Part shown: piece after piece, positions 1,686 through 51,669 of the stretch
Position numbering within the stretch: the stretch's first letter is position 1
How the letters are laid out: every line of letters starts with the position of its first letter
Translations under genes and position numbers: made by a program
Assembly (NCBI GenBank): GCA_015039465.1
Contig: MU130477.1
Coordinates: 368,619 to 432,618, forward strand
Direction: 5' to 3'
DNA: 64,000 nt
Source: Phlegmacium glaucopus
Taxonomy: Eukaryota > Basidiomycota > Agaricomycetes > Agaricales > Cortinariaceae
The notes under the pieces: model-generated
The model's input: the letters and a program-made list of their open reading frames with translations, nothing else
What the model was told of the DNA's origin: nothing
Databases searched by the model: none

Positions 1686-2219
1686 TGTTACATTCCATCA
1701 CACGTTACTCTGGTCCAACTCCATCGGAGTTGTTTCCAGTAGTCTGTACTCCGTTCCAGTACTTTCCCTTGTCTCTGACTCTACTCCTCCTACGTCCGAC
1801 TCTGAGACTTCTCCGTATCACTCCAACTCTTCCAACAATATCCCAAACCCCTTACCACACCTTTGTCATACCAGCCATGGATTATTCACCCAAGAATGCA
1901 GGACCTTTTCTGGGAGCAGAACACAGCACTTATATTTATATTCTATATTTTGGTTGCAATTCCTTTTATATTTAAAGTACTCGAACTTGTATGTTTTCCC
2001 TCAGTTCGAATATCATCTTAGTTTCCTCCTCTTGTTCGTCCTCTAAGTCACTGAGGTCTTCCGACTTTCCATTCTCTTCCGTTCCCGAAATCAGGACATT
2101 GTAGGAGCTGTGCAGCACAGCACATACGCTGAGGCCAAAGTCCTTTCCGTTACTTGTTCCAGTTCCATTCCGTCTGATCTGGTGTTACTCCGATGTGACC
2201 CCTTGTTTTGAACTTAACA
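1686..2219 (+). mobile_element. Solo LTR (family B) with CATAG duplication
   Basis: The 534-bp sequence starts TGTTAC and ends TTAACA. It is flanked by a perfect 5-bp duplication CATAG (1681-1685 and 2220-2224), the signature of an LTR retrotransposon reduced to one LTR. An A/T-rich TATA-like segment near 1930-1975 could be the promoter part. Other copies: 1-279 (inverted), 8575-8667 (5' end only), and 48726-49083, which is present in reversed, uncomplemented order. Confidence 0.85.
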
Positions 2220-2383
2220 CATAGGAATCTGAAATTTCAAACTGGTATCAAATTCCAGCTTAAATTAGATAGCTTAGATTTAGAATCATTTGAAACCCAG
2301 TCTCATCCCGTGGACATGAAAATTCCAGATTCATTTTCATATCAGATTGTGTTTATGTCATCAAAGACCGTTAGAACTCGCCC

Positions 2384-5097
2384 ATGACGACGCTTAGCGA
2401 CCTCTGCCATGAAGAAGAGGAGGCTGCTGCTGCCGCAGTGCTTACTCTCACCTTGGAACACATCTTGGCAGCTTGGAATGCACAAATCAAGCGCTGCCGG
2501 CCTCATCAACTTTACCTCACACGATATAAATCGTTGTTGTTGTTGTATATAAACACCAACCAGAGAGCAGTGGACCAGACCTTAGGTCAAGAGACTCCCT
2601 GTTGTTCGTTTAGGGAAGGTATAACCTTAGACTTGTATCACACAGAGGTAGGGGGTGAGAATAGAGATGAGAAGGATGAGGATGAATGAGGAAGAGTCTT
2701 CAGTAAGACTATAGTAATTGACAGTGGGGATAGATTGACAGTTAAAGGCAGAAAAAAAGTGAACTTGAGGAAGGAATTCATTGGAATTCCACTGAGATGA
2801 TGAAAGTGGGGGGTAAGAATGAATTGAACTCAACTACCTATCCTGGTACAAAAGAGCAGTATTTATACCCTAAGGATGAGGCTATGTAAAACAATAAAAA
2901 AGAAAGAAGTACGCGCTGTCAAAGGAAGAAAGATAAAGAGAGGACAGCTGCGAGAAGAAAAGAACAATGGAAAAGAAGAAGGAACAATAAAAAAATCTGT
3001 AAAGTGTCAAAGTGCGAGAGAAAAGAAGAGAAGGCAGTGTACATAGTCCAATAGCAAAAATATATCAACTCCATAGGCGTGTGGTCATGTCAAAAATGTG
3101 AAAGGTCCTGAGTCAACACTTGAAAGGCGCAGCCTTGTTCCCGAGAAAACACTACTTGCCCATGGTCCCATGTCGCGCAGCCTTGATAACACTTGACACA
3201 CTGCGAGAATAATCCTCTGCTGCTGATTCATCTGCAATTCCTGCTTAGTTGTGATCCTCCTGGACTTCCTAAATTGTCATAAAGAGGGTGGGAAGGCTTC
3301 AGGTACCGCGTGAATGATGGTTTTGGCAGTGAATGATAAGATAAGAGGTAGATGAGTGAGGATAGGGGACTGAGTGAGATCCAGGAGCGAGGTATGGCAA
3401 GATAGATGGCTGAGGGGAAGACTTGTGGGTCCATAGCCACAACAACAATGACAAAGCCTTTGACATAATGGGAGATGTAGCTGATGCGTCCATAAAGGGG
3501 CCGTTCTTGAAATGATGGACCATAGATACGATCAAACGCGAGCCGATGACCGATGCGAATAGTAGATTGATCGCTTTGTTGTATCACTAGCCAAGGGACA
3601 AACGGATGGTAGATGTTAAGGAGCATGTCGATAGTGTAAATGATAGACAACATAGTGGAAGACATTTGAGGATATGATGAGTGATGAGGATGTTATCATT
3701 GAACGAATGATTTTGTTGACCAGGAACGCGATTCAGGGCTGCTTCCAAAATAGGTAAGTAAATTCAAAGTCCACTTATTTTCATGATGGCGACTTTTAAG
3801 CTTTCTTCTCACGCTACCAATCAGTATTGGTGCGCGACAACGACAAGAATTATTACTGAATCCACACATTGGGACACCATGGCAGACACTCTGGGCCAGC
3901 CAAGAAGACCGTGCATTCATTACTACAATGGGCCTTGATGTTGTGACCTTTTATAGGATTTTAGAAGGCCCCAGAGGATTTGAAGAGTGGTGGGAGAGTA
4001 CACCAATTCCACGCAACGATGTGAGCTGTAGTGGTGACCCACGAGGCTATAGACAATCACTGGATGCTGCAGGTGGCCTGGGCCTTATCCTGCACTACCT
4101 AGGATCTGCTATGCTTGAAGTCACTCTTCAGCAGGTCTTTGCACTGACCCCAACTGTTCTTTCGAGGTTTGGATTTACTTTTTTTTTTGTTTTGAGATTT
4201 TCATTCATAACTATTATTTTCAGATACCTGGAGTTCGCTGAAGACATCCTTTATAATACCCTTCATTCACTTGAAGAAGGATCTATCTCTATGCCCCATA
4301 CTGCTCAAGAGTTTCAACATTTTTCCAACCTCATCTGCATGCGGCATCCTCTTTTAGAAGGTGCTTTTGGTTCTATAGATGGGCTTTCCTTACTTGCCCA
4401 GGAATCAGATGACCCCGAAATCGAAAACGCGACCTACAATGGCTGGAAAACGGCACATTGCATCAATAATGTCCTTGTATTTTCTCCAGAAGGTATTTCT
4501 TTCACTGTTTTTTTCTCTTTTTTGTCCCAGGCTAATTCATTTGACTGTTAGGTGTCATTATCAGTGCCGTCATCAATGCTCCAGGCAGCTGGCATGATGC
4601 ACATGTCGCATGCCCTATATTCGAACAACTCCGCTCTCATGTACCAGATGGACACTTTCTTGTTGCAGATACAGCATTTCCTTGTGGGACAGCATCAATC
4701 AAAGGCAAGATACGTGCCCCAATCAAGGGAGGGTGAGCGGATCCTGGCCGAATATGCTGCACAACAGCTAACATTGGCTGTCAACCGCCAACTCCTCTCA
4801 TATCGACAAACGGCCAAATGGGGTATTCGCATGATTCAGGGCTCATTTGGCCATCTGCGAGTCCCACTCAAAATCAGCTCACCAAAACGTAGGCAACGGC
4901 TACTGGAGATAATTATCAGACTTGCCAATGTACGTACTTGATGTGTAGGAATCAACCAGATACAAACTGTATATATGCCGATATGGAAGGCTGCAGAGGA
5001 TGAACAGTTGTGGCTTGACCTTGGGGATATGATGTTTGGGGACATTTGGAGGAGGGATTGTGTTTCTCGCTTTCATTTAGTAGTTGAAGATCAATAA
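2384..5097 (+). pseudogene. PIF/Harbinger-type DDE transposase, broken
   Basis: A DDE_Tnp_4-like transposase. The reading frame starts at 2384, is interrupted by a 1.3-kb LTR (2525-3839), and resumes exactly in frame after the 4-bp duplication ACGA. Two introns are visible (about 4167-4224 and about 4493-4550). Catalytic positions: first Asp in GSIDG and second Asp in LVADTAFP. The position where relatives have Glu before WG reads Lys (AAA at 4816-4818, AKWGIRMIQGSFG). A frameshift near 4730 and an in-frame stop after ANVRT add further damage; coding resemblance continues to the TAA at 5095 (VGINQIQTVYMPIW). The gene converges on the element's second gene at 5248-6356. Almost certainly inactive. 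Confidence 0.85.
2525..3839 (-). mobile_element. Solo LTR (family C), copy 1
   Basis: This 1315-bp element is the reverse complement of 40439-41743 at high identity. It is flanked by a 4-bp duplication ACGA (2521-2524 and 3840-3843). In element orientation it starts TGTCGCG and ends GATTTATA, with a TATA box (GGTATAAATACTGC) about 330 bp from its end. The position and size fit a long solo LTR with U3-R-U5 structure; no internal retrotransposon genes are present. It carries a 145-codon ORF (3665-3228, minus) also open in copy 2. Confidence 0.85.
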
Positions 5098-12022: not shown

Positions 12023-12647
12023 TGTTGGAATTTTTAGTAATTATGCAAGCTAAATGTATCATATATGGACCAGAGTTAGTGTTGTTGAGGCTAGCTTGAG
12101 CAATTTTAGTATTTTTCAAATAACATGACACTATGTACTTTGATTGCTTAGTGTTGGGAGATGACCCCCAGGCTTATAGGGTCCTTTATATGTGTAAATA
12201 TTCATATAATTCTATAGGATTTATTAGAATTTATATTACCATCAAGCCATTTGTCAAGTGGCTTGATGGAAATATCAATTCCAATAAATCCTATAAAATT
12301 CTATAAATATTTACACATATAGAGGACCCTATAAGCAGGGGGTCATCTCCCAACACTAAGCAATCAAAGTACATAGTGTCATGTTATTTGAAAAATACTA
12401 AAATTGCTCAAGCCAGCCTCACTAACCAGAGTAGATAGCAGGAATATTAACCAATAGCGGTAAGGGCTTGTAGATAGCAAATAAGCATAGCCATGGTCTG
12501 AATTGTATAAGTAGTAAGCCTTTGAGGATGGAATTCCTCATTGGTTTAAGCTAATACAGTGTATATTCCCTCTTCAGCTTAAGCTTCAACTCAGTTAGCG
12601 CTCTTGTCTGGAATCTGTACTTTAAGCCAACACTAGAATTTCCAACA
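12023..12647 (+). mobile_element. Solo LTR (TGTTGGAA...TTCCAACA) with ATATA duplication
   Basis: Termini TGTTGGAA and TTCCAACA are perfect inverted repeats typical of Ty1/copia LTRs, flanked by a 5-bp duplication ATATA (12018-12022 and 12648-12652). Without the nested foldback (about 12064-12430) the LTR would be about 260 bp, a usual copia LTR size. Confidence 0.8.
12064..12430. mobile_element. Foldback element nested in the LTR
   Basis: Two arms of about 180 bp are near-perfect reverse complements of each other around a short centre near 12248. They share TTGCTTAGTGTTGGGAGATG, TAGGGTCC and CATCAAGCCA stretches. The whole element could fold into one long hairpin. It has no coding capacity and lies inside the solo LTR 12023-12647. 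Confidence 0.8.
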
Positions 12648-35496: not shown

Positions 35497-35768
35497 CATC
35501 AGGAAAAACACTTTGGCTCTAAGAGTCTCTCAGAGCAACCTCAAAAATTCAAGTGTACAAATCATTAAAAAATGCATTTGAAACATATTTATTTTTTTGA
35601 GGTTGGTCTGAGGACTCCCAGAGTAGCTAGAGTGTCTTAAATGCTATCCAAGGACACCTCAGGACAACCTGAACAGCATAGATAAAATTTTGAGTGTCAC
35701 ACATTTGCTCAGGACACCTTTAGTGTATCCTGGTGCACTGACCATCTGGATTAAATCACATCAGGAGG
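35497..35768. mobile_element. CATCAGG-family mini-element, truncated
   Basis: Begins CATCAGGAAAAACACTTTGG and is the reverse complement of about 37762-38051, but lacks the last 21 bp of the second terminal repeat. Also includes the older repeat (AAGGACACCTCAGGACAACC) into which this family inserted. Confidence 0.65.
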
Positions 35769-35824
35769 CCCTGGGAGTCCTTTAGAATTTATGATTTTTA
35801 CTAGACAATATTCAACCACTGCGT

Positions 35825-37138: not shown

Positions 37139-37142
37139 GCAT

Positions 37143-37537
37143 CCAGGAAAGTATTTTGCAATTTTCTCAATAAGGAGAGCTGTCATTAATATAATTTAAA
37201 CATATTCAGGGTCCTAAAACAATTCTCTACCATCTTTAAAAAATTTCCTTTTTTGGAATTTTATGTAATCTACCCTGACCCACCATATGCTTGAAATCAT
37301 GCTTATCTGTGATCATGTGACCAATGGTCTGTGCGCCATCCAAAAGATATATAAACCACCCACAATTTTGTTTTCTTATTTCCCAGTATTATAGTACTAT
37401 ATAACTTTGTATCACTATTTTATTATTATTGTATTACTAGTATATATGATGTTTAGAATAATTGAATATGATTTTATTATATTATTATTATTCTGTTGTG
37501 TGAGACTATTCAAATATCTGGTTTATATATGCTCTAG
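37143..37537 (+). repeat. Repeat D, whose reversed copy lies at 44.15-44.56 kb
   Basis: It contains CTCAATAAGGAGAGCTG, GATCATGTGACCAATGG and AAAGATATATAAACCACCC. Reading 44560 down to 44150 without complementing reproduces this sequence almost base for base. The first part is also the inverted form of the tandem unit at 7380-7757. Confidence 0.85.
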
Positions 37538-38051
37538 CATCAGATCCAAAGGGACTAAGGCTGCCTCAGGATGCTCTCAGGTGACACTCCCAGGTTGCCC
37601 CAGGACATACCCAGGACATACCCAGGACATACCCAGGACACCCCCAGAGTTTATGAAAAAAAGGACATTGGAATAATACCTTCTTAGAGCACTCTTAGAG
37701 CTCTGGGAGTATCCTTAGAGCATCCTTAGGCTGTCCTGGGGCAAAAGTGTTTTTCCTGATGCTCCTGATGTGATTTAATCCAGATGGTCAATGCACCAGG
37801 ATACACTAAAGGTGTCCTGAGAAAATGGGTGACACTCAAAATTTTATCTATGCTGTCCTAGGTTGTCCTGAGGTGTCCTTGGATAGCATCAGGAAAAACA
37901 CTTTAGCTCTAAGACACTCTAGCTACTCTGGGAGTCTCAGACCAACCTCAAAAAAATAAATATGTTACAAATGCATTTTTTAATGATTTGTACACTTGAA
38001 TTTTTGAGGTTGCTCTGAGAGACTCTTAGAGCCAAAGTGTTTTTCCTGATG
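37538..38051. mobile_element. Cluster of CATCAG...CTGATG mini-elements
   Basis: Two elements: 37538-37761 (CATCAGATCC ... TTCCTGATG, with internal tandem CCCAGGACATA) and 37887-38051 (165 bp, terminal repeats CATCAGGAAAAACACTTT / AAAGTGTTTTTCCTGATG). Between them lies an older repeat shared with 35640-35768. A further right end (TTTTTCCTGATG) is at 53105-53116. Non-coding, hairpin-forming, MITE-like. Confidence 0.7.
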
Positions 38052-43800: not shown

Positions 43801-43943
43801 GGCACAATCTGATATCTCTAATAGACACCCAAGTCATCACTTCTCCTTTGGAAATATTCAAACTCCGTTGATGACCGGCAACTTCGGCAAAAGTGTTGAG
43901 CATTCTCACACCCGGCCATACAGAGCATCCGAACAAGCTCTTA

Positions 43944-44108
43944 GTAGCAATCATGTATCAGGTAATGTGACTCAGAGCCTGTTTATACTTAGGTTATTGG
44001 CTTTTTCCGGTTTGCTTATTTGTGACTAACTATCATGATGGGAGCCAGGAAGCAAACAATGATCAATAACTCATTTCCAGCAATGTGTTGTTGTCATATA
44101 TTTGTTTT
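43944..44108. other. Transition to the anomalous block
   Basis: Between the TTA duplication of Harbinger element 2 and the first base demonstrably in reversed order (44109). I cannot tell by eye in which polarity this short stretch is written; the left breakpoint of the reversed block lies somewhere here. Confidence 0.5.
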
Positions 44109-44569
44109 ACTCTCGTAGGACTCCGTCGGAATCAGGGAAACCTAGACTACGATCTTTTGTATATATTTGGTCTATAAACTCACCAGAGTGTGTTGTCTTA
44201 TTATTATTATTGTTATTTTAATATAAGTTAATAAGATTTGTAGTATATATCATGATCATTATTTTATTATTATTTTATCACTATGTATTTATATGATCAT
44301 ATTATGACCCCTTCATCCTTTATTCTTTTGTTTTAACACCCACCAAATATATAGAAAACCTACCGCGTGTCTGGTAACCAGTGTACTAGTGTCTATTCGT
44401 ACTAAAGTTCGTATACGACCCAGTCCCATCTAATGTATTTAAGGTTTTTTCCTTTAAAAAATTTCTACCATCTATTAACAAAATCCTGGGACTTATACAA
44501 ATTTAATATAATTATCGTCGAGAGGAATAACTCTTTTGACGTTTTATGAAAAGACCTGCGCCGCCAATT

Positions 44570-46126
44570 TCTAAAAGATCGTTTTAAGTATTTAAGATTC
44601 CCTGAGGGTCCCGGAGGACTACACTAAATTAGGCCTACCAGTTACGTGGTCCTATGTGATTTCCCCAGGACTCTTTTACCCACTGTGAGTTTTAAAATGG
44701 ACACGACGAGATCCTACAGGACTCCACAGGACCCCACAGGACCCTACAGGACTCATCACTACACTATGATTGTTTAATGGGTTCCGATGGATCCCGGTTT
44801 TAGTAAAAAGGACTACACTAAAGCGATAGCTGTCCAAAAAACCTCGGCTTATAAGTCAACAACCAGTAATAAAAGTACTATTCTTAAACTTACATTATGG
44901 TGTTTTTTTTTTGTCTTAGTGACTACATTTCAGAGATCCGACATAGGTAGTTTAAGAGTAGAAAAAATTGTAACCACTTTTGGTAGGTACGGGGAACACG
45001 TAATGGGGATCAACCTCCAGGTACATAGGTAAAGGTAGATCTCCCTTCACTTCACAAAAGTTTTTTAACATATGACATCTAAAATTCCATTAAAGACTCA
45101 ACTCAACTAACCTTCAACCAAAGTATCAAAACTCCACTAAAGTCGACTCTGTGACCAATCTTTGAGGTTGAGGGTAACCTACACGTGATCCTACATAGGT
45201 GTACTTCCAATTTCAAAATGACCCGACCTTAAGTTGTTACAAACATACATGAGGATTAAGAACAACAAGAACCTCTTACACCAGGTCAAATTATACCAAC
45301 ATTTATTACTCTACCTCCGGTTATAGGTAGTGTTTGGGTACTCACTTACTCCCAACATTTAGACAAACACTTTTCGTATCCTAGAATGATTTGTTGAAAG
45401 ATCACTTTATACGGGTTCTATACAAACACGTTCCTAATATTATTGAATGTATAGACGTTTTAGGACTTGACAACGGAAACTTAGAAGTTTCAACTCTCTC
45501 GTGACGTCCTATCTTCCAATTCTTATAACCTCAGTGACACTAAGTTTTAGATAACTTTGACCCCATTTTTTTACTGATCATTTTCGATTTATTACATAAT
45601 TTTTTTAACTCAAGTTTATCCAAGTTCTAAATATGGAGAAGACGACCATGACTCGGTCATAATAAACCATACTATATATTTACATAGGGAAAAGAAACAA
45701 ACGTCAAAGTGATACAAGGACAATTTGTTACATTTAAACTATATGTTTATAATAGTGGTCTTCAGTTTTTATTTTAAGGTTCGTGGTTATTACTTTAACT
45801 AGTTATTAAATCTTTCTATTTATAACTATAACGTCTTGGAACATAATAATAATGATAATATTAAAAAAATATATATAAAAATAACTCTTTTATAAGAATA
45901 CACATAGTTGGAGAAATGTAATAACACCGGTCTCGCGGAGGTATCCTGGGTTCCTTCTTTGTGGAAACTTGAGTCTTTGGACAGAAAATCGAAGGTTTTG
46001 TTTGTTGTCACTGACCAGAAGTTAAAATACTCCAAAGTATCCCTACAAAAACCCATTTACCTATTCGTGTTCATTACCCATCATTTAATTATTCACTTGT
46101 AATATTTAATAGAGTTTTTGGAAAAG
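44570..46126. other. Unassigned mirror-image interior of insertion
   Basis: Read backwards, this part follows a poly-A tract and ends in repeats D and the CATCAG element, so it appears to be an insertion into the WD40 array. Near 44705-44760 the mirror reading gives CCAGGACACC-type tandem motifs also found at 37560-37650. I recognise no gene in it in mirror orientation. Confidence 0.5.
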
Positions 46127-46154
46127 AAAAAAAAAAAAAAAAAAAAAAAAAAAT
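46127..46154. repeat. Poly-A tract at WD40 interruption
   Basis: A run of about 28 A residues, just where the mirrored WD40 reading (ending GTCTCTGCATCT) is interrupted. It could be a retroposon tail or a sequencing/assembly homopolymer. Confidence 0.7.
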
Positions 46155-48724
46155 CTACGTCTCTGTTATACGTATGATAGTCTTCTTTTCAACTGTCTGG
46201 ACTGGTTTAGACTTACAGGAAACTCGAGACGGAGTGTGAGAGGACACCGACGTAAGGTCCAGGCACGCCACGTTAGTAATCTACGCCTCTGTTATACGTA
46301 TGGTAGACCTCTTTTATGTCGTCTCAACTGGGTTAAACTTACAGGAAACTCGAGACGGAGTGTCAGAGGACACCGACATAAGGTCTAGGCACGTCACGTT
46401 AGTGATCTACGTCTGTGTTATACGTATGGTAGTCCTCTCTTCTGTCGTCTCAACTGGGTTAGACTTACAGGAAACTCGAGACGGAGTGTGAGAGGACACC
46501 GACATAAGGTCTAGGCACGTCACGCTAGTGATTCTACGTCTCTGTTATACGTATGGTAGTCCTCTCTTCTGTCGTCTCAACTGGGTTAGACTTACAGGAA
46601 ACTCGAGACGGAGTGTGAGAGGACACCGACGTAAGGTCTAGGCACGTCACGTTAGTAATCTACGTCTCTGTTATACGTATGGTAGTCCTCTCTTCTGTCG
46701 TCTGAACTGGGTTAGACTTACAGGAAACTTGTGACGGAGTGTGAGAGGACACCGACGTAAGGTCTAGGCACGTCACGTTAGTAATCTACGTCTCTGTTAT
46801 ACGTATGGTAGTCCTCTCTTCTGTCGTCTCAACTGGGTTAGACTTACAGGAAACTTGAGACGGAGTGTGAGAGGACACCGACGTAAGGTCTAGTTACGTC
46901 ACATTAGTATTCTACGTCTGTGTTATACGTATGGTAGTCCTCTCTTCTGTCGTCTCTTCTGACTCCTACTTACAGGAGAGTCGAGACGGAGTGTGAGAGG
47001 ACATCAACATAAGGTCTAGGTACGTCACACTAGTAGTCTACATCTCTGTTATACGTATGGTAGTGTTCTCTTTTGTCGCCTCAACTGTGGACATCTTACA
47101 GAGTCTTGACGAAGTCTGGTTGAGGTACGGAAAGAGGAAGGGTCTGTCTCGAAGGTACCTGTCAGGTAGAATAGAGGTATACAAAAGGTCTATAGTCTAA
47201 AAAGTCCGTCGGTTCGATCCCGACTTCCTGTAGGAAGTTCTGACCATAAAAATTACTTTGGTTTTGAAAGAAAGTTTTTGACAAAACGTAGTTAGTACCA
47301 ACAACGGTTCCAGAAAACCCAGATAAAAGATAATATTCACGTTAGGTAGACGTCGTTGTTCTAGTGAATGTAAACGGGTTAAAAGATCAAAAACGTTACT
47401 TACGTAACGTCAGAGGTTAAACGGATTTTATGAGTTTGTTAGGTAGGTAGCGTCTTCTACAGAAACTTTCTTTAAGAAGTTGAGTTGTGTAAGTAACAAA
47501 AACAAAGGTACCCATTTTACTTACCGGGTCGATGGTGTTCGTATACGTTCTCGAAGTCTTTAAAGAAGTGTAGAGGAGAGAGGGTTTATTTTATGAGAAA
47601 GAAAGGGACTGGTAAGAAAGAGGTAGTTCCTGTCTGTGACTTCACGATCTACCAATACACTTTGTGTTCCCAGTTCTATTACAAAACTCCTTTCTCACAC
47701 TAATGACTACTTTAGTATTTTCCTTCGTACCTCATGACTCTAGACGAATCGTCTTCACAACTATACTACCTTATACATAGTTACTTACTTCCCTTCTTTC
47801 CCGACGTAGTTGGACAAGGTACCCATAAAGGTAGTTTCTTGACTACCGTCAGTATCTTTCTCCCAATATATGTATATGTTGTCGACAGTCTTGGTACAGA
47901 TATGAGGTTTGGAGGGGTGGTCAACGTCTAAATATTCGTCGTAGGTTTTAAGAAAGTATTTCCTGTACATCACCAACCCAATGTGGTCTACATCAAAGGT
48001 TACGTGTTAACTGGTGTAGACTTTCTGCGGATCCGTACGATCCCGATGGAGAGACTCGTTATATAAACGTCTGTCAACGACGTATTTACTTGTTTCATGG
48101 TCTGTAGAATTGTTCCGAAAGTTGAAGTCGGACTCCACCGGTTAATACGGATAACATGAATAAAAAGGGTGGTTCGTTCGTTCGAAATTACATCTCGAGT
48201 TATAGTCGAACGTGTTAGAGGAAAAGTTGGAGTACTTCCTACTTTAACCTTACTAAGTTTCTTGGTAGTTTTCAGAGGAAGTGGTGATAAAGACCTGCTG
48301 ATCATTACTTCTTGAAATGACCTTCTCTAAATGACACGAAATTCTAGTGTCTTTCGTTGAGTCGGTGTTCCCTGACCAGTCTCGTGAGTAGGTCTCGTAG
48401 TTCTTGTTATTGACCCTGTTAATGAGGAAGAGATGACAGGGACATACGTCGTCACTCACCAGATTGTTACTTTAAGTCCTTAACAAACCGTTAGGAGGTT
48501 CTAAACGTCAGTCCTAACCGAAGATGACGTAGATCCTAGTCAACCCTGTCTGTCCCTTCTATGGGTGACCGTCGGTTGACTTCCGTTTATCACCCCTACT
48601 ACGTTGCTTGTAGTGACCATAGTTGGACCTCTACTCTTCTCTTCTTTCATGGTGGTTCCCTAAGGGAAAGTAGTTCCTAAACTGACTTACTCATTCGTTA
48701 ACATCAAAATGGTCAAGGTCGGTA
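46155..48724. pseudogene. NACHT-WD40 (NLR-like) coding sequence in mirror order
   Basis: Read from 48724 down to 46155 without complementing. A STAND-type NTPase with WD40 repeats, a fungal NLR architecture implicated in non-self recognition. Motifs in order: Walker A MAGTGKTTIAYSF; GGTFFSSHL; DVRCIIPTICLQLA; Walker B VIVLDALDECSD; VKFFITSRPE; SGTLFIYAATVCKY; AISSLMEIPMEQVDAALSSL; ISVLHASFYDFIS; then about seven WD40 units of about 126 nt (47100-46155). The frame is open for about 960 nt, with one apparent 1-nt frameshift near 47760, then open again. LTR-B lies immediately before the Walker A codons, so the N-terminal effector region is missing here. The gene would continue at 49085. Confidence 0.88.
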
Positions 48725-48725
48725 G

Positions 48726-49083
48726 ACAATTAAAATTTTGTTCCTTCAGTGCAGCCTCAATGAGGCCTTGCCTGCCTTGCCTTGACCTTGTCATTCGCCT
48801 TTCCTGCAACCGGAGTCGCACACACGACACGGCGGGTCGAGGATTCCACAGGACTAAAGCCTTGCCTTCTTTTTCATTATTCAGCCTTCTGGAGTCACTG
48901 AATCTCCTTCTTATCCTCCTCCTTTGTTTCAACTATAAACTTGACTCCTTATGTATGTTCGAAGCTCATGAATTTATTATTTTCCTTATCGTTGGTTTTA
49001 TATTTTCTATTTATACTTCACGACGCAAGACGAGGACCTTCCAGGACGTAAGAACCCACTTATTAGGTATCGTCCACACGACT
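48726..49083. mobile_element. LTR-B fragment in mirror order
   Basis: Read backwards it matches 1870-2219 (CTGAGGTCTTCCGACTT, then GCACAGCACA and ACGCTGAGGCC) and ends ATTAACA next to the Walker A codons of the NACHT gene. Its 5' part is missing at the breakpoint. Confidence 0.85.
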
Positions 49084-49084
49084 G

Positions 49085-50112
49085 ATGATTGCACTGCACG
49101 GATCTGGAATGCAGCCACAGGAGACTGTGAGGCAGAGCTCAAAGGACATTCAAATTGGGTCAAATCTGCTGTCTTTTCTCCAGATGGTATGCATATTGTC
49201 TCCACATCTGATGCTCACATGGCATGTGTCTGGAATGCAGCCACAGGAGAGTGTGAGGCAGAGCTCAAAGGACATACAAATATAGTCATCTCTGCTGTCT
49301 TTTCTCCTAGTGGTATGTATATTCTCTCTGCATCTTGGGATCATACTGCACGGATCTGGAATGCAGACACAGGAGAGTGTGAGGCAGAGCTCAAAGGACA
49401 TTCAAATAAGGTTAATTCTGCTGTCTTTTCTCCTGATGGTATGCATATTGTCTCTGCATCTTCAGATAACACTGCATGGATTTGGAATGCAGCCACAGGA
49501 GAGTGTGAGGCAGAGCTCAAAGGACATTCAGATTGGGTCAACTCTGCTGTCTTCTCTCCTGATGGTATGCATATTGTCTCTGCATCTGATGATCACACTG
49601 TACGAATCTGGAATATGGCCACAAGAGAGTGTGAGGCAGAGCTCAAAGGACATTCAAATTGGGTCAATTCTGCTGTCTTCTCTCCTAATGGTATGTATAT
49701 TGTCTCTACATCTTGGGATCATACTGCACGGATCTGGAATGCAGCCACAGGAGAGTGTGAGGCAGTGCACACTTCTGTTTTATCTTCATCTGATAACAAT
49801 CAATTATCATCAATCCCTGATGGTATTTGTATCCACACTGATTTTAATGGCCACATCAATGTCTTCCTTGAGCCATCTTTCCTTTACATATGCAAAGAAA
49901 CAATACTCCACAGTATAAGCCTTCAGAGAATCTGGGTTCCACCTCCTTTCCGCAACCCACAATCCATCAGCTATCACAAATCTAAAATATGCCTTGGGTA
50001 TGGATTAGGAGAAGTTTTGCTTTTAGAAGTATGTATGGTCCTTATATTTCATGGATGTTACTTCATTGCTAATTCTTTTCTCTCAAATATAGTTCCAATG
50101 TTAATGTCTTAA
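49085..50112 (+). CDS. WD40-repeat C-terminal part of NACHT-WD40 gene
   Basis: About five to six WD40 units of 126-129 nt in normal polarity, each reading like GHSNWVNSAVFSPDGMHIVS then ARIWNAATGECEAELK; these form beta-propeller blades. Units are nearly identical at the DNA level, as in fungal NLRs that diversify by repeat exchange. After the last unit (about 49767) a non-repeat tail follows (DGICIHTDFNGHINVFLE, RIWVPPPFRNPQ), with a stop at 50112 or earlier if an intron lies after LGEVLLLEV. The upstream half of the gene is the mirrored sequence to the left; reversing that block makes the two halves co-linear. An ORF starting at 48709 is an artefact of the mirrored part. Confidence 0.85.
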
Positions 50113-50236
50113 ATGTTGCAAACTTTCTTTTACTTTTTGGTCATTGTTTTAGCATCATGCTCAATGCATGACTTATACCATGTTTTTTCCTTTCCTGGTC
50201 TCCAAAAAATCATCAAAATGTGTAGAATGCAGCTTA
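50113..50236. other. 3' flank of the WD40 gene
   Basis: A short non-coding stretch between the gene end and the Tc1/mariner-type element; nothing recognised. Confidence 0.4.
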
Positions 50237-50914
50237 CAGGGTTTTGCATAATATAATGAACACTCATTTTTTTTGTGGCGGTCACGTGTGAGATTTCCCA
50301 CAGCCAAATCTTATCAACTGATCAATCTGGCTCAACCTCGATGAACTCACTCACCTTCCAGACACATCCTATCCTCTCGTAAACTCAGAAATATGTTCCT
50401 ATAGCCATCCACCACATATACTGCTACTTTCACCATTTTTTGCCTGTTGGACCCTATGCAACATCACCCTTGATATCAAGACCACATGTCTGCCTCATTT
50501 CTCATCCTGAACCTTTGGATCGATATCATTACATGTATCGTTCAGTAGCATCCAAGTTAGTTAGATATTAAGAGCACATTGTGCATGCAAAAATCCCAAA
50601 ATTTTGCTTGCTCTTGGTATATTCCCCTTAGTAATAGAAGGGATTGACCAATGTACCATAATGATTATGATATGTTAAAATATTTGTGATAGTTCCTATT
50701 GAGCATCCTGCGAGATCTGCCAGCTTTCGGTACATGTAACCGCGGTCACTCTGCCATTTTACAATGCGATCACGTAGATCTTTCAAAAGGTGAGGGAGTC
50801 GCAGCATATCTAACTGATCAAAAATCCCCAATATGGCCTTTGTTTGGCTGTGGGAAAGCTTACACGTGACTGCCACAAAAAAAACGAGTGTTCATTATAT
50901 TATGCAAAACCCTG
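50237..50914. mobile_element. 678-bp Tc1/mariner-type element
   Basis: Terminal inverted repeats of about 58 bp (outer part CAGGGTTTTGCATAATATAA) are flanked by TA on both sides (50235-50236 and 50915-50916). This fits Tc1/mariner insertion. The element is too short for a transposase and keeps only an N-terminal fragment on the minus strand. Confidence 0.88.
50628..50876 (-). pseudogene. Helix-turn-helix fragment of a Tc1/mariner transposase
   Basis: 82 codons: the part KDLRDRIVKWQSDRGYMYRK then LADLAGCSIGTITNIL looks like the N-terminal HTH domain that binds the element's ends. The DDE catalytic domain is absent. It lies wholly inside the 678-bp element, so this is an internal-deletion derivative. 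Confidence 0.6.
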
Positions 50915-50916
50915 TA

Positions 50917-51669
50917 ATGAAGACATTTCTACTGGTTTCCTTACCCCGAAATTTTTGGTTCAGATACCTCAAATTTTTGACCACACCATCTGGAATAGTT
51001 GGAAAAATAGTGCAATTGACTCATTTTGATTAGTCACATCTGATTCTACAAGAAAGTTTGGGTTCCATTGAACTCATTGGCCATATTGAACTGACTAGAC
51101 TTCATAAAAAAAGGAACATTCTGCTGGTTACCTACAAAATGAACTCTTCACAATTCACTCCTGGTCCTAGAAGTCCCTAGACCTTTGTCAAGGGTTAAAT
51201 AAAGGAGCAAAAACAATTGTCTCATGATTTTCCTACTCTGATTGCTAGCAGTTGAAAGTTCAAAATTTGGTGTTGTTGAAAGAACAAACTCCTACAAGCC
51301 CATATTTGGTATAGTAAATGCCTGCTACTAATTTGTCATATATTCAAGGTCTTTACAGTGCCCCATGGTTTCCACTCAGAATCCGAATGGAATCCAAGCA
51401 GATTCCAAGCATTCTGAGGAGCCTATTTGGACTCTAAGTGGAATATTTTCTGGCAGGTAACCCCCTCAAATTTGCAACTTTGGTTGGAACACATTCCACT
51501 TGGAATTAATGTTACACCCTAATAGGTTATGCTTACTAATTTTTAAAAAATCACATATACCGGGAGTCAAACCATTGATATAGTAGCAATTACAATCAGC
51601 AATATAACACCTGAGCCATAGCAGCACTTTCTAGGTGTCAGAGCTTAGTTAATATATTAGCACCTGGGA
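50917..51669. other. Spacer, nothing recognised
   Basis: No gene or bounded repeat seen. Short ORFs without features. Confidence 0.4.

Follow-up and report, generated by a model that had tools for sequence, protein, structure and literature searches.

Phlegmacium glaucopus was formerly called Cortinarius glaucopus. One study mentioning C. glaucopus had its sequencing and assembly carried out at JGI and states, for the study as a whole, that hybrid assemblies were made by ALLPATHS-LG followed by PBJelly and others by Falcon or Celera (PMC7550596). PBJelly, according to the consulted sections of its description, treats any run of at least 25 N as a gap, which it makes smaller by adding sequence that extends the flanks (English et al. 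2012, PMC3504050). Known errors of gap closing, as given in the available portion of the DENTIST paper, include overfilled gaps and inaccurate closures (PMC8848313). A literature search of partial texts found no published report of a gap-fill fault in which sequence is reversed without being complemented, which is no proof of absence; the phrase 'reversed but not complemented', where it was met in such excerpts, refers to a control with reversed motif matrices, a different matter.

We analyzed a 64-kb stretch of the P. glaucopus assembly (hereafter, the window), in which a block of about 5 kb consists of two pieces, each string-reversed in place, with 25 A between them (Table 1). As in the PBJelly description, the probable gap here has at least 25 positions, one or both flanks would be extended, and the gap would be reduced or overfilled and left unclosed; by contrast, the sections of that description consulted speak of N and do not mention reversed strings or A25. 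As in the errors described in the excerpted DENTIST text, the fault would lie within sequence added by the closer, but there the length or the bases are wrong, whereas here the base order is reversed without complementing. We consider it highly probable that both pieces are ordinary fungal DNA that was written reversed by a gap-filling flank extension into an unclosed gap. The mirror at 44109-49085 is present in the file but almost surely absent from the fungus, and is no biological feature.

Table 1. Features of the mirrored block and its surroundings, as read here (window positions)
Feature	Position	Strand	Evidence
Normal end of left contig, 168-bp repeat piece	43941..44108	+	six of six fetched copies (L003-L008) match at 96-98%
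Probable extension of left flank (2018 bp), base order reversed in place	44109..46126	.	seam match to L003; 93-99% reversed matches to six copies
25 A, taken as gap placeholder	46127..46151	.	fit neither piece; tandem array begins at 46152
Probable extension of right flank (2934 bp), base order reversed in place	46152..49085	.	meets 49086 without a break in the 126-bp period (87% over 156 positions)
Mirrored WD40 repeats, 126-bp units	46152..47087	.	PF00400, E 3.9e-49 on backwards reading
Mirrored NACHT-type NTPase frame, 326 aa backwards	47750..48727	.	PF24883 NPHP3_N, E 1.1e-15
Start of right contig, normal continuation of WD40 array	49086..49771	+	array period; mirror match to 46912-46222
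Six-frame ORF, 467 aa	48709..50112	+	first 124 or so residues come from mirrored DNA

When the window was searched by BLAST against its own reversed sequence, 44109-49085 aligned with ordinary sequence only if reversed without complementing. Read backwards, 44560-44109 matched 37139-37579 (92.5% of 455, E 0) and 49079-48723 matched 1867-2222 (85.9% of 362, E 2.7e-109), in agreement with the pairs reported in an earlier note made from the sequence (44560-44109 with 37143-37576, and 49083-48726 with 1870-2219). Further matches joined 46912-46222 to 49082-49771 (87.7% of 691), 44734-44557 to 35648-35824 (89%) and, on the minus strand, 49085-48941 to 149-4 (92%) and 44734-44614 to 37882-37762 (93%). 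In this alignment of the reversed block to its other copies, which the note had proposed as a check, the main matches span 146-691 bases, have several unrelated partners and reach E-values between 0 and about 1e-54; the kinds of sequence that agree on mirroring, repeat families and the WD40 array, are mutually unrelated. Chance or low-complexity similarity, for which nothing speaks beyond short AT-rich stretches, has a practically nil probability against matches of this kind, and the note's argument that three unrelated sequences exclude chance holds. Across the whole window, every mirror match at E ≤ 1e-8 had one side inside 44109-49085, and none joined two sites outside it at that threshold. 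The note had described a single mirror block at 44109..49083; the reversal without complement was borne out, but the block proved to be two pieces around the 25 A, with its right end at 49084-49085.

A 5-mer score, which sets each word against its own reverse, was negative in 62 of 496 scoring windows across the 64-kb stretch, 35 of them in the block and 27 outside it, the latter never below -0.12. Both these 27 slightly negative windows and a positive score at 48626-48875, inside the block, count against the gap-extension reading. The window is rich in true inverted repeats, as would suit an ordinary inversion or inverted repeat mistaken for a mirror; however, the reverse aligns where the reverse complement does not, and the k-mer score changes sign across most of the block, so that we regard this explanation as exceedingly improbable. 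A genomic inversion was rejected accordingly, the segment not being a reverse complement and aligning in place when reversed without complementing. Likewise rejected was a mirror repeat of the H-DNA type, a short homopurine-homopyrimidine tract with mirror symmetry about a centre, since the block holds mixed-base coding and repeat sequence with partners up to 49 kb apart. Elsewhere in the window, a 336-bp near-perfect palindrome without clear spacer lies at 12086-12421 (93% self-complementary); it may be a foldback element, or an artefact of the library.

Many copies of the repeat at 43941-44108 are spread over the genome. In each of the six copies fetched (L003-L008), the equivalent of 44108 is followed by sequence that is seen in the window only when reading backwards from 46126. 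At this left seam, 80 of 80 bases equal those of L003 after in-place reversal, as against 50 of 80 as written. The left piece shows 5, 3, 13 and 3 gap openings relative to four other copies, resembling the 4 to 16 found among the copies themselves, so that a raw noisy long read as the source of this piece finds no support. At the right seam, 46152-49085 reversed in place meets the plus-strand WD40 array at 49086 in phase, with the join ambiguous by 1-2 bases. A join of 46154-49085 to 49086 was tried and left the repeat phase off by two bases, which a start at 46152 repairs. The visible A-run is 27 bases long (46127-46153), and its last two bases, 46152-46153, fit the WD40 repeat; since the tandem array starts at 46152, the 25 A belong to neither piece.

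Read backwards, the right piece holds a frame of 326 aa with a NACHT domain (48727-47750), one of 148 aa, and WD40 frames of 263 aa (47321-46533) and 246 aa (46891-46154), both of these in other phases. The long open NACHT-WD40 coding sequence that the earlier note saw in reversed 48724-46155 is therefore present as NACHT and WD40 frames, with all of the motifs it named (MAGTGKTT, VIVLDALDEC and FFITSRPE), but is divided among several frames in different phases; the frames of the WD40 region are broken, and the phase changes are as with introns or indels. The backwards reading carries a STAND NTPase domain (PF24883, 58.6 bits, cut-off 24.8) and the C-terminal WD40 array of a NACHT-WD40 NLR (PF00400); the NACHT model PF05729 scored 21.9 bits, under its cut-off of 26.7. 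In a comparison with NACHT proteins, likewise proposed in the note, the backwards NACHT reading had 886 homologous proteins at E ≤ 0.001 (sources jgi, ena and ncbi), the best five among the matches listed with 98% coverage and 78-81% identity. By contrast, residues 1-124 of the ORF as written at 48709..50112 had no homologue at E ≤ 0.001 among 310 candidates, in keeping with the note, which called any annotation of the block in the usual six frames wrong. We take the family of the hidden gene to be the fungal NACHT-WD40 STAND/NLR genes, with which it shares an NTPase domain bearing Walker motifs as well as WD40 repeats of 126 bp that closely resemble one another. From these likenesses the gene looks like an ordinary NACHT-WD40 gene; no unusual feature was seen in it, and only its spelling differs. 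The gene's upstream part is located close to the gap or past it. With one NACHT-type protein as query and 108 of 538 candidates scored, at least 151 stretches of the whole genome matched, the majority at 64-96% identity; these would represent a large NLR-like family in P. glaucopus. Just past the WD40 gene, 50234-50308 and 50843-50917 are inverted repeats of 75 bp, 95% alike and separated by about 530 bp, that resemble small transposon ends.

Outside the two pieces, the window shows depletion of CpG (observed/expected 0.53) but none of GpC (0.94). Within the pieces it is GpC that is depleted (0.16 and 0.21), with no depletion of CpG (0.83 and 1.04). The CpG depletion of ordinary sequence thus shows up in the pieces as GpC depletion, indicating that it arose in normal order, and there is no sign of mutation while mirrored. 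That the organism itself underwent a genuine mirror-image rearrangement, through some novel mechanism, is spoken for by the deposited letters alone; no template-directed route to mirror-image DNA is known. This dinucleotide pattern, the position of the mirrored pieces beside A25 or N-runs, and the ORF start without homologue among the 310 candidates all argue against it, and make it extraordinarily unlikely.

We then considered the A-run. The genome assembly comprises 60.5 Mb in 259 contigs; their plus strands carry 298 A-runs of at least 24, as against 15 T-runs, and at the 17 A-run loci examined the run was 25-33 long, never 24. At L008, reversal of the left part in place made the locus collinear with L003 and L006, and A26 takes the place of 135 bases that both of these copies contain; at L011, the flanks adjoin without an A-run at two other genome sites (96% and 82%). 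The A-runs at these two loci are placeholders, not genomic sequence, and we infer the same for the run in the window. A global conversion of N to A was disfavoured as their source because N-runs also occur, though some of these may not be assembly gaps; the coexistence of A25 and N-runs is itself a point against gap extension.

The earlier note had suggested a scan of the assembly for other mirror blocks. This was done in part, covering 16 listed A-runs, one locus found through its repeat, six mirrored repeat copies and four words, and mirrored sequence was found at A-runs, in repeat copies and as exact words. The A-run loci comprised L008, found via its repeat, and 16 of the 17 first-listed A-runs, with C7:21075 left out. 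By a 6-mer mirror score, for which 114 sides taken from the window served as controls, 17 of 34 sides were flagged at p ≤ 0.05, where 5% is expected, and nine at p ≤ 0.01. At least one side was flagged at 13 of the 17 loci; the four loci with no mirror signature on either side, and a single T-run locus with one of two sides flagged (p 0.018), weigh against the gap-extension reading. The four exact words occurred in normal and mirrored form 141/13, 57/4, 15/1 and 26/0 times in the whole genome, a total of 239 versus 18, which is no unbiased rate because the first two words come from families with known mirrored copies.

Flanks of 11 A-runs (22 segments of 150 bases, 3300 of the 4800 bases prepared) were also searched backwards, and nine segments matched among the best 40 of 908 candidates, a selection in which misses mean little; for comparison, the best 40 of 1219 candidates were scored as written. 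Six flanks were taken as mirrored from these alignments (L020 left and right, L023 left, L039 left and right, and L041 right). As written, these six match themselves, both L039 sides also match a site in their own locus, and L020 right matches a single further copy, which would then also be mirrored. With L027 right and L042 right, the alignments indicate that the partner, not the flank, is mirrored, because L027 right occurs as written at more than 20 places and the partner of L042 right sits in the mirrored part of L053. L027 left matched backwards at 82-83%. Of six mirrored copies retrieved for the L027 repeat, five have A25 or N within the mirrored segment or next to it: A25 is inside it at L053 and 84 bases from it at L054, and an N-run, a mark that may not always be an assembly gap, is inside it or at its end at L049, L051 and L052. 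In the sixth, L050 (C184:378841-384996), the mirrored segment at 2074-3862 contains neither A25 nor N-run; this is counted against gap extension and is perhaps a gap closed with mirrored sequence. The right flank of the A-run at C5:283890 (L023, C5:282390-285413) is mirrored by k-mer score and is 100% identical, as written, to C5:277897-278046, 6 kb off, so two mirrored copies may be present. At C3:32324-32620 and C3:36883-37215, a local duplication of about 300 bp (96% alike) has one copy split by an A-run, and may be an extension overlapping its neighbour contig.

In-place reversal restored collinearity at four further loci, L008, L020, L049 and L053. At L049, the mirrored piece begins at the contig edge (1862) and stops at 3824, immediately ahead of the N-run, and 78 of 80 seam bases are right in place versus 49 of 80 as written; at L053, the piece stops where A25 begins, and its seam, like that of L020, is within 1-2 bases. 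In the window and at L020, L049 and L053, therefore, added sequence lies between contig edge and placeholder to within 1-2 bases.

The recurrence of this pattern at other A-runs and N-runs points to gap extension. A gap-filling step would have extended both contig ends into a gap that was left unclosed, each extension would have been written in reversed base order without complementing, and the 25-A run would stand for the remaining gap. N-runs inside contigs would suit a scaffolded hybrid assembly. The fit of PBJelly to the mirrored pieces is close, and we infer that a PBJelly-like flank extension, within a hybrid assembly by ALLPATHS-LG and PBJelly, was the step responsible. Another file-handling fault, for instance in a post-processing or scaffolding script, may instead have reversed the strings, and A25 in place of N hints at some non-standard step; but in the window and at L020, L049 and L053 the mirrored pieces span from contig edge to A-run or N-run, as flank extensions do, and we consider such a script unlikely. 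The earlier note's view that an assembly or file fault is by far the likeliest cause is supported.

Perhaps, although we rate it below an even chance, the gap-extension step of a widely used hybrid pipeline planted mirror DNA by gaps in many public genomes, unnoticed and first charted here; on this reading, it went unnoticed because common aligners skip the reverse without complement. A search for a reversed 16S pattern across a prokaryote collection gave 0 matches and, without a positive control, says little. What makes the finding useful is that it diagnoses an assembly fault which recurs and is hard to see. A simple test, alignment to the reversed sequence and a search for plus-strand 25-A runs, allows the owners of this and sister assemblies to find affected stretches. 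Because the pieces are spelled backwards, genes read from such stretches would be wrong, and the stretches could give false orphan proteins and lost read mapping. They look like unique sequence and hide real genes and repeat copies, invisible to standard searches: in this window, a NACHT-WD40 gene is present yet unreadable in six frames.
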